Assembly: GCA_002167555.2 (NCBI GenBank)
Contig: NHDL02000002.1
Coordinates: 138,340 to 161,810 of the forward strand
Length of the DNA stretch: 23,471 nt
Source of the DNA: Deltaproteobacteria bacterium TMED58
GTDB taxonomy: Bacteria; Desulfobacterota_D; UBA1144
Direction: 5' to 3'
The position numbers and the translations under genes were made by a program. Below are positions 6,748-9,499 of this stretch, piece after piece. A model generated the notes under the pieces. That model was not told the origin of the DNA. It was given only the letters and a program-made list of their open reading frames with translations, and searched no databases. Each line of letters opens with the position of its first letter. Position 1 is the stretch's first letter.

Positions 6748-8034
6748 ATGTTTAAAAAAACTAAAAATTTTTTCATTTTTATATTTTTGTCTATACTGAC
6801 AGTTTTTTCAGTAAATAGCGCATCAGCTTCAAGTTCTCCAGACGAGACAGCATTTATTTTTAATACTTTATTATTTTTGATATGTGGCTTTCTTGTTATG
6901 TGGATGGCAGCTGGTTTCGCAATGCTGGAATCAGGTATGGTTAGATCAAAAAATGTTTCTACAATTTGTTTAAAAAACGTCGGATTATATTCAATTTCAG
7001 GAATTATGTTCTACATAGTTGGATATAACTTAGCTTATGGAATCCCTGAAGGTGGATACATGGGCAGCTTTAGTTCATTTGTTGCAGCTGAGGATATGGC
7101 TACTGGTTATTCAGCTCACTCAGATTGGTTCTTCCAGATGGTTTTCTGTGCAACAACAGTATCAATAGTTTCAGGAACTATAGCAGAAAGAATAAAAATA
7201 TGGCCTTTCTTCATTTTTGCTGCAATTTTGGCTGGTATTATTTACCCAATCGAAATGGGATGGCAATGGGGAGGAGGATGGCTATCATCAATGGGATTCT
7301 CTGATTTTGCTGGATCTACATTGGTTCACGCAGCTGGTGGAGCAGCAGCTTTAGCAGGTGCTATTATCATTGGCCCTAGAATTGGAAGATTTGCCGCAGA
7401 TGGTACATCAACACCAATTCCTGCATCTAGCATACCTCTAGCTACATTAGGTACATTCATACTTTGGTTAGGTTGGTTTGGATTCAACGGCGGATCACAA
7501 CTTGCTATTGGTTCCATGGATGATGCAGTTGCGGTTTCAAATATTTTTGTTAACACAAACATAGCAGCATGTTCTGGATTAATAGTTGCTATGATTATTT
7601 CACAAACAATTTATGGAAAAGTAGATGTTACTTTTGCCTTAAACGGCGCACTAGCAGGACTTGTTTCAATCACAGCGGAGCCTTTAATGCCTACAGCATA
7701 TAGTTCTATGTTGATTGGTGGAATAGGCGGAATGATTGCAGTCTTTGGTACACAGTTTATCTCAAGCTTAAAGATTGACGATGTAGTAGGTGCTTTACCA
7801 GTTCACTTAATTGCTGGAATATGGGGAACCATTGCTGTTGCAATAACAAACCCAGATACATCTTTCGTGACACAAACTATTGGAGCTTTCTCTGTAGTAA
7901 TATTTGTCTTCATTCTATCTGCAGTCGTATGGTCAGTACTTAAAATGACTATAGGAGTCAGACCAACAGAAGAAGAAGAACAATTAGGTTCTGATAAATC
8001 GGAGGTTGGTATAGAAGCATATACAATCCAATAA
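6748..8034 (+). CDS. amt: Ammonium transporter (Amt), first of two
   Basis: A 428-residue Amt/Mep/Rh-family inner-membrane channel that takes up ammonium; the family is trimeric with 11 membrane helices. An N-terminal signal peptide (KK, hydrophobic core, cleavage probably near residues 25-28) precedes the first helix. Motifs: GFAMLESGMVRSKN at 57-69 and the pore twin histidines H194 (STLVHAAGG) and H353 (GALPVHLIAGIWG). The C-terminal tail ends in an acidic EEEEQLGSDKSEVG segment, the part that meets PII/GlnK proteins in relatives. It has an excellent Shine-Dalgarno AGGAGG and a sigma-54 promoter. It is only distantly similar to the second amt downstream, so the two are not a recent duplication. 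No glnK is adjacent. Confidence 0.96.
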   Translation: MFKKTKNFFIFIFLSILTVFSVNSASASSSPDETAFIFNTLLFLICGFLVMWMAAGFAMLESGMVRSKNVSTICLKNVGLYSISGIMFYIVGYNLAYGIPEGGYMGSFSSFVAAEDMATGYSAHSDWFFQMVFCATTVSIVSGTIAERIKIWPFFIFAAILAGIIYPIEMGWQWGGGWLSSMGFSDFAGSTLVHAAGGAAALAGAIIIGPRIGRFAADGTSTPIPASSIPLATLGTFILWLGWFGFNGGSQLAIGSMDDAVAVSNIFVNTNIAACSGLIVAMIISQTIYGKVDVTFALNGALAGLVSITAEPLMPTAYSSMLIGGIGGMIAVFGTQFISSLKIDDVVGALPVHLIAGIWGTIAVAITNPDTSFVTQTIGAFSVVIFVFILSAVVWSVLKMTIGVRPTEEEEQLGSDKSEVGIEAYTIQ

Positions 8035-8048
8035 AACGATCGCATAAA

Positions 8049-8143
8049 CGCAAACCTGCGTAGCAATACTTATATTTAAGCCTTTGCTACCTCCTGGATA
8101 AGCCCCTGTTTCCTAGCTTTTACGGGGCTTATCTTCTTTTTTT
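8049..8143 (+). ncRNA. Structured 3' region of the amt transcript, possible 3'-UTR-derived small RNA
   Basis: Between the first amt stop (8034) and the second sigma-54 promoter lie several stem-loops. A small hairpin CGCA-aacc-TGCG is at 8049-8060. A second pairs GTAGCAA (8060-8066) with TTGCTAC (8084-8090) around an inner CTTA/TAAG stem. ACCTCCT at 8089-8095 resembles the anti-Shine-Dalgarno. The intrinsic terminator is at 8096-8143. This much structure downstream of a stop codon, ending in a U-tract, is what a 3'-UTR small RNA looks like. That it is released or functional is inference. Confidence 0.35.
8096..8143 (+). terminator. Intrinsic terminator of the first amt transcript
   Basis: ATAAGCCCC (8098-8106) pairs with GGGGCTTAT (8124-8132), extended by G8097-C8133 and a G-U pair. 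A 17-nt loop lies between the arms and a T-rich tract (8134-8143) follows. The loop is unusually long, and 14 of its bases (8110-8123) are complementary to the start of the second amt leader. Confidence 0.85.
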
Positions 8144-8193
8144 ATAACCTGGCATGATAATTGCATAATATAGTTGTAAGTAAAAGCTAGGAA
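8110..8193 (+). repeat. 14-bp perfect inverted repeat linking terminator loop and second amt leader
   Basis: TTCCTAGCTTTTAC at 8110-8123 is the exact reverse complement of GTAAAAGCTAGGAA at 8180-8193. The left arm fills most of the terminator loop and the right arm begins about 5 nt after the predicted sigma-54 start. The arms flank the second sigma-54 promoter, with centres 70 bp apart. Confidence 0.9.
8150..8165 (+). promoter_or_regulatory. Sigma-54 promoter of the second amt gene
   Basis: TGGCAT, five bases, then TTGCA. The invariant GG (8151-8152) and GC (8163-8164) are 10 nt apart, as sigma-54 requires; only one base of the TGGCAC element deviates. The predicted transcription start is about 8175-8176, leaving an 88-nt leader. 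Confidence 0.8.
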
Positions 8194-8238
8194 CCCCTTA
8201 TTTAGAATTCTTTTATATTAAGGTATTGATTTTACTTA
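8177..8238 (+). promoter_or_regulatory. Folded 5' leader of the second amt mRNA
   Basis: TAAGTAAAA (8177-8185) pairs perfectly with TTTTACTTA (8230-8238), and CCTTA (8196-8200) with TAAGG (8219-8223) inside it. The ribosome site AGGAG (8253-8257) is outside the fold. The 5' strand of the outer stem overlaps the bases that could instead pair with the amt terminator loop, so the two pairings exclude each other. Confidence 0.45.
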
Positions 8239-8263
8239 TAATTTTTGACCATAGGAGTCTATT

Positions 8264-9499
8264 ATGAGTATTGTCACTATAGTTACATTACTTTTATTTT
8301 TTGTTCCATTAAGCTCTTTTTCATCCGAGCTTAATTCAGGAGATTCCTCCTGGATTTTAACTTCGACAGCTCTAGTTCTTTTTATGACTTTGCCAGGACT
8401 TGCATTGTTCTACGGCGGATTAGTAAGATCTAGAAATGTTTTATCAGTTCTTATGCACTGTATTGCAGTTGCATGTTTAATGTCTATTCTTTGGGTTGTA
8501 GCAGGCTATTCTATAGCTTTTGGGGATGGACTTGATTTAAATAAATACTGGGGTGGTTTCTCAAGATTCTTTCTTTCAGGCGTTGATTCTGAAAGTCTTT
8601 CTGGAACTATTCCTGAAACAGTTTTTACTGGATTTCAAATGACTTTCGCGGTAATAACACCCGCACTTATAATTGGTGCCTTTGTTGAAAGAATTAAGTT
8701 TTCATTCGTACTAATTTTTTCAGCTTTATGGATGCTGCTCTGCTACGCACCGGTAACTCATTGGGTATGGGGCGGTGGTTTCTTAATGGAGCTAGGAACA
8801 GTTGATTTAGCTGGGGGATTAGTCGTCCATGAAACTGCAGGGATTGCGGCCTTGGTTATAGCATGTTTTTTAGGTACCAGAAAAGATACCGGGAAACCTC
8901 CACATAACCCAGGATATGTAATGTTAGGTGCATGTATGTTGTGGGTTGGATGGTTTGGATTTAACGCTGGCTCCCAACTCGCTGCTAATGGTAGCGCCGG
9001 GATGACATTATTGGTAACCCATCTTTCTGCATCTGCTGCATCACTTTCATGGGCAACCTATGAATATTTTAAACATGGAAAAGCTTCTTTGGTAGGTTTA
9101 GTTACTGGTACTATTGCAGGTTTAGCTACAATTACCCCTGCATCGGGCTCTGTAACACCATTAGAGGCAATTTTACTAGGTTCTATTGCAGGAATATTAT
9201 GTCAAGAAATGTGTAGTGTAATTAAAAGTAAATTTAATATTGATGATTCATTAGATGTATTTGCAGTTCATGGTTTTGGTGGAATTTTAGGGACACTTTC
9301 AATAGCTGCATTTGGTCATGCTGGATGGTATGAGCAACTTTACGGAGTATTAACTGTTGGGATATATACATTAGTTATGACAACTATAATCGTTGTTGTG
9401 GTTAAGGCGATAGTTCCACTTCGAGTAGAGTCTGACGATGAAGAAGTTGGTTTAGATCAGTCAGAACATGGGGAAAAAGCTTACGATTTAAGTAGCTAA
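8264..9499 (+). CDS. amt: Ammonium transporter (Amt/AmtB-like), second of two
   Basis: A 411-residue Amt-family channel, closer in its motifs to proteobacterial AmtB than the first copy. It has an N-terminal hydrophobic signal segment (residues 1-20), FYGGLVRSRNVLSVLM at 49-64, and pore histidines H189 (GLVVHETAG) and H336 (DVFAVHGFGGILGT). Their spacing of 147 is close to that in E. coli AmtB (H168 and H318). The tail carries the acidic DDEEVGLDQSEHGEKAY segment typical of PII-regulated transporters. The start is supported by AGGAG at 8253-8257. It has its own sigma-54 promoter and a folded leader. It ends only 5 bp from the stop of the opposing tautomerase gene, with no terminator of its own visible. 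Confidence 0.96.
   Translation: MSIVTIVTLLLFFVPLSSFSSELNSGDSSWILTSTALVLFMTLPGLALFYGGLVRSRNVLSVLMHCIAVACLMSILWVVAGYSIAFGDGLDLNKYWGGFSRFFLSGVDSESLSGTIPETVFTGFQMTFAVITPALIIGAFVERIKFSFVLIFSALWMLLCYAPVTHWVWGGGFLMELGTVDLAGGLVVHETAGIAALVIACFLGTRKDTGKPPHNPGYVMLGACMLWVGWFGFNAGSQLAANGSAGMTLLVTHLSASAASLSWATYEYFKHGKASLVGLVTGTIAGLATITPASGSVTPLEAILLGSIAGILCQEMCSVIKSKFNIDDSLDVFAVHGFGGILGTLSIAAFGHAGWYEQLYGVLTVGIYTLVMTTIIVVVVKAIVPLRVESDDEEVGLDQSEHGEKAYDLSS

Follow-up and report, generated by a model that had tools for sequence, protein, structure and literature searches.

In Staphylococcus aureus, the icaR mRNA is described as carrying a stretch of 3′UTR that is complementary to its 5′ leader and controls translation (PMC3868564). 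A similar 3′UTR/5′-leader complementarity links the 3′ end of amt-1 to the leader of amt-2, two tandem ammonium transporter genes within the stretch of DNA analyzed here (23,471 nt from Deltaproteobacteria bacterium TMED58, hereafter the window). In the icaR account, however, both ends belong to one gene's mRNA and meet at the Shine-Dalgarno sequence (PMC3868564), whereas the amt arms, known from sequence alone, lie on two messages, with the leader site upstream of the Shine-Dalgarno. A second counterpart is GlnZ, a small RNA (sRNA) released from the glnA 3′UTR, in which a nitrogen-assimilation message supplies a trans-acting RNA from its 3′ end, as proposed for amt-1, but which is reported as a processed sRNA of Enterobacteriaceae (PMC9731577), whereas the amt case, so far a matter of sequence, comes without a detected Hfq. 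As far as these two accounts go, icaR and GlnZ show both ingredients to exist in nature, and neither is homologous to the amt case.

The amt-2 leader would also resemble riboswitch-like two-state translational leaders, in which one strand is shared between a helix at the 5′ side and a competing helix over the start codon, but it comes without a ligand, a known aptamer or an Rfam match and is represented by four sequences only. Glutamine riboswitches (glnA RNA and Downstream-peptide RNA) lie ahead of nitrogen genes in marine bacteria; the amt-2 leader likewise precedes a nitrogen gene but matches no Rfam model.

Organization of the amt-1/amt-2 locus

The upstream gene, amt-1 (6748-8034, forward strand, as are all features below), is an ammonium transporter of the marine subtype (TIGR03644, 582 bits, cut-off 514) and is followed by amt-2 (8264-9499; TIGR00836, 390 bits, cut-off 343). 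Based on its sequence and fold, amt-1 ends in an intrinsic terminator (8097-8133) with a 10-bp stem formed by GATAAGCCCC (8097-8106) and GGGGCTTATC (8124-8133), a 17-nt loop, TGTTTCCTAGCTTTTAC (8107-8123), and a T-rich tail on its 3′ side. The sigma-54 -24/-12 promoter of amt-2 (TGGCATGATAATTGC, 8150-8164) matches TGGCAY-N5-TTGC, and the same promoter is found in three relatives, G002, G004 and G010:C12; counting from C(-12) at 8164 places the predicted +1 at 8176. RpoN (PF04552) is encoded in all 14 related genomes, and box and sigma factor together identify amt-2 as a sigma-54-dependent unit.

Upstream of the terminator, the amt-1 3′UTR contains a hairpin (8059-8090), GTAGCAA...TTGCTAC, and then an anti-Shine-Dalgarno-like ACCTCCT. 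Hairpin and terminator jointly reach a fold z of -3.66, and the hairpin arms are conserved in G002, G003, G004 and G010:C12. The conserved pattern across 8059-8095 is GTAGCAA-N13..18-TTGCTAC with ACCTCCT after it; an AYCTCCT word upstream of the terminator is also present in G006-G009, G011, G012 and G010:C6, and absent in G003 and G004. This element is possibly a 3′UTR RNA with an anti-Shine-Dalgarno seed. A different genus offers another 3′-end/5′-leader complementarity in this spacer (loci L014 and L015 of G009 and G008): the word preceding the amt-1 terminator, ATATCTCCTT in G009, complements the ribosome-binding site of amt-2 (AAGGAGATAT).

An exact 14-base match between terminator loop and leader

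A sequence-only reading of the window had noticed that 14 bases of the terminator loop, TTCCTAGCTTTTAC at 8110-8123, are the exact reverse complement of GTAAAAGCTAGGAA at 8180-8193, close to the predicted sigma-54 start, and had judged a chance match of this kind unlikely. Direct reading bears out the match, and the leader arm begins 4 nt after 8176. This is the only exact 14-bp inverted repeat with a spacer of 20-150 nt in the 23.5-kb window, against 0.025 expected per shuffled window, and the longest complement in 20,000 Markov draws (17 nt versus 88 nt) was 12, so that, as complementarity between a would-be 3′UTR-derived trans-acting sRNA and its target, 14 exact base pairs are beyond chance. 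Even allowing for its post hoc choice, the match is more than chance. The 14-nt word occurs exactly at these two places only in the genome.

Extra copies of the word in the family number five, all of them in long open frames (on either strand) and none in leaders. An exact-word scan of viral contigs returned many matches, which were taken as chance, and the promoter-plus-word pattern had no match in these contigs.

Conservation of the two arms in related genomes

The order comprises 14 genomes, in which several spacers besides the window's own are informative. G010:C12 has the same layout as the window, with 11 contiguous base pairs between loop (TGTTTCCTAGCTTTAAT) and leader (GTAGGTAAAAGCTAGGAACC), and G002 has 9 (loop TAGTTTCCTAGCTTTCGT, leader ATAAGTAAAAGCTAGGCATT); the corresponding core in the window's species, G000, is 14 bp. 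Across these three species, 12-13 loop bases, including the core GTTTCCTAGCTTT, and 12 leader bases are invariant. Identity at four-fold synonymous sites of amt genes is only 32-59% in the species comparisons (65% in one pair), which places both arms above a saturated synonymous background. The leader word AAGTAAAAGCTAGG (AGGTAAAAGCTAGG in G010:C12) is present in all four species having the leader. The conserved blocks of the spacer are the promoter, the terminator with its loop, the ribosome-binding site, both strands of a leader helix (P1, described below) and its adjoining GCUAGG; identity in the central part of the leader falls to 34-54%.

Two other spacers differ more. In G003, the loop (TATTTACTAGCTTTTATA) retains most of its core, and the amt-2 promoter, leader and start codon are absent from the assembly; the gap apparently lies between two TTATTTTTT words, and this loss (L004, G003:C14) is either a real deletion or an assembly collapse. 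G004 retains the leader word (AAGTAAAAGCTAGGAA) as well as the two sigma-54 promoters, and its terminator loop, TAAAAGTTAAGAAATA, is inverted relative to the others, core included, with no complementarity to the leader (loop-leader pairing of -3.8 kcal/mol, versus -20.1 kcal/mol for the window's own pair).

Gene content around these spacers also varies. In G004 (L005, G004:C52), the same sigma-54 leader precedes a gene of a different amt clade, with 49% identity to amt-2, and amt-2 remnants lie further downstream, a gene replacement behind a retained leader. G010:C6 carries three consecutive amt genes (L033, L031, L011), the second of which has a sigma-54 box of its own, and the further amt-2 of G010, on C12, is closer to the window's genus and perhaps sits on a foreign contig.

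A likely 5′-terminal helix in the amt-2 leader

The leader arm is made up of part of the 5′ strand of P1 and an adjoining unpaired segment, GCUAGGAA. P1 is a 10-bp helix between 8176-8185, at the predicted 5′ end of the transcript, and UUUUACUUAU at 8230-8239, and is conserved in all four species having the leader: every one of the 40 cells (100%) is paired, versus 42-50% in slid registers. All four copies of the helix start within +1 to +3 of the predicted transcript start, the word being offset from that start by 4-6 nt, and an invariant unpaired GCUAGG adjoins its 5′ strand, the rest of the intervening segment being variable. Sequence changes in P1 consist of one double change (U-A to C-G, in G004) and three one-sided wobble changes. 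With only four sequences, covariation control (a) was not exceeded (137 of 500 shuffles), and comparison of the sequences therefore makes P1 a likely, rather than a proven, RNA helix. Because the leader arm would be engaged in this intramolecular helix with 8230-8239, its conservation is explained independently of the loop.

A covariance model of the leader recovered the four amt leaders at E < 1e-9 among 57 genomes of the class and nothing beyond them, the next matches being at E 0.015 or weaker. Searches of the window region and four relatives against Rfam gave no match at the gathering score, and weak sub-threshold matches were taken as chance; for an upstream open frame behind AGGAA, no conserved start codon was seen. 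We regard the leader as a candidate cis-regulatory RNA that has not been described before.

The 3′ strand of P1 could also take part in an alternative (anti-P1) helix, in which UACUUAUAAU (8233-8242) would pair with AUUAUGAGUA (8261-8270), covering the amt-2 start codon, with lengths of 10, 10, 9 and 9 bp across the species. Here 95% of cells can pair across all four, versus 25-52% in slid registers, and there is no double change. Since they share a strand, P1 and the alternative helix are mutually exclusive folds, and the two lie within ~1.5 kcal/mol of each other in G010:C12, G002 and G004. In G000, equilibrium favours the start-codon helix by 3.7 kcal/mol (0.94), so that switching there would have to be kinetic. 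With the 5′ strand of P1 blocked, the value for the start-codon helix rises to 0.89-0.97 in every species. A start-codon helix of such length has a ~1-5% chance of arising in any single sequence, and the modelled folds are thus no more than suggestive of a two-state translational leader, in which the alternative helix would sequester the start codon.

Alternative explanations for the loop arm

The sequence-only reading had proposed that the 3′ end of the amt-1 message pairs in trans, loop to leader, with the amt-2 message. The match, the promoter, the location in a loop and the conservation of both arms in three species all hold, but the partnership of the two arms does not follow from them. 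The reading looked to related spacers for compensatory changes, and there are none, all changes within the pairing being one-sided. It also held that a homologous region keeping both sigma-54 promoters while losing the complementarity without compensation would speak against it; G004, which retains promoters and leader, is such a case, with the caveat that the gene behind its leader is an amt paralogue other than amt-2 (49% identical to it) and the G004 assembly is fragmentary. In a loop-by-leader matrix, no cognate pair stands clearly above the non-cognate ones, and the best partner of the G000 loop is the G004 leader (15 nt, -21.5 kcal/mol), longer than any cognate pair. Pairing that would be conserved or compensated in a 3′UTR-derived sRNA is partly retained in G010:C12 and G002 and absent in G004. 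Hfq (PF17209) and ProQ (PF04352) were found in none of the 14 related genomes; GlnZ is Hfq-associated, and such a chaperone is not obligatory for all antisense RNAs. In the literature on amt 3′UTR RNAs and terminator-loop seeds, we found nothing directly matching. A trans interaction under selection, cross-regulating both transporters, would suit a match beyond chance, two arms that persist in G000, G010:C12 and G002 while synonymous sites are saturated, a loop core largely present in G003, and a loop centre that exactly matches the unpaired GCUAGGAA. Given the non-pairing loop of G004, the lack of compensation or cognate preference, the chaperones not found, and the retention of most of the G003 loop though the leader is gone from that assembly, we consider it unlikely.

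The two arms could instead be a DNA-level element, namely a single protein-binding site present twice in opposite orientation, near -66 and +5 on either side of the sigma-54 promoter, and serving as an operator by looping or occlusion. Core to core, the arms are 73 bp apart in G000 and G002 and 72 bp apart in G010:C12, ~seven helical turns, which is consistent with such an arrangement. So is the G004 loop, which resembles the other loops only as its reverse complement (matching G000 in 14 of 19 aligned columns), a finding compatible with a site that works in either orientation. This turned-round similarity, however, reaches only P 0.037 against shuffles (compared with G003), the genome holds no further copy of the word within one mismatch and two-mismatch copies at background level, no regulator gene is seen nearby, and P1 accounts better for the leader copy; we regard a DNA element as improbable. 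Finally, the loop arm may be a relic or a coincidence, i.e. a now functionless inverted duplicate of the leader word, or else its source, the copies eroding at different rates and the leader word being kept for its own structure only. The G000 loop complements the G004 leader beyond any cognate pair, as if copied from an ancestral leader, complementarity declines from 14 to 11 to 9 to none, and the shorter loops of G011 and G012 still have TAGCT in genomes without any such leader. Against this, the invariance of 12-13 loop bases in three species whose 4-fold sites are ~32-55% identical exceeds neutral decay, and we hold this explanation to be doubtful, albeit one to be taken seriously.

A candidate two-state leader and its significance

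The explanation we favour, and to which we give about an even chance, is a structured two-state leader of amt-2, with the amt-1 terminator loop as a possible trans trigger in this lineage. Under this explanation, the amt-2 transcript from the sigma-54 promoter would begin with a short structured 5′ leader containing 8180-8193, whose first ten bases would form the 5′-terminal P1 with 8230-8239, followed by the invariant unpaired GCUAGG. With P1 formed, the start codon would be free; with P1 open, its downstream strand would occupy the start-codon region and hide the start codon, and the leader would thereby provide translational on/off control of amt-2. The loop is complementary to the six innermost positions of the 5′ strand of P1 together with the neighbouring unpaired GCUAGGAA, so that its binding would disrupt P1 and shift the balance towards the fold that hides the start codon. 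The loop could then act as a trans trigger, by toehold and subsequent strand displacement, pushing the leader to its hidden state in the window's species and two close relatives (G010:C12 and G002), and not in G004.

Within this explanation, the leader structure is the best-supported element, and its switching can reasonably be inferred, with an effect on translation that may accompany it. The loop as trans trigger is possible but unproven, and not general; a 14-bp duplex does not fit in a closed 17-nt loop without some opening, which counts against it. A natural toehold switch, in which the amt-1 terminator loop invades P1 of the amt-2 leader and hides its start codon without a known RNA chaperone, such that abundant amt-1 message shuts off amt-2, would be a long shot.

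If the leader does switch, it would add a post-transcriptional layer to the control of ammonium uptake in a streamlined (~1 Mb) genome, in which few regulators are expected. If the loop is indeed its trigger, the two paralogous transporters would be connected by direct mRNA-to-mRNA cross-talk, without a detected RNA chaperone.
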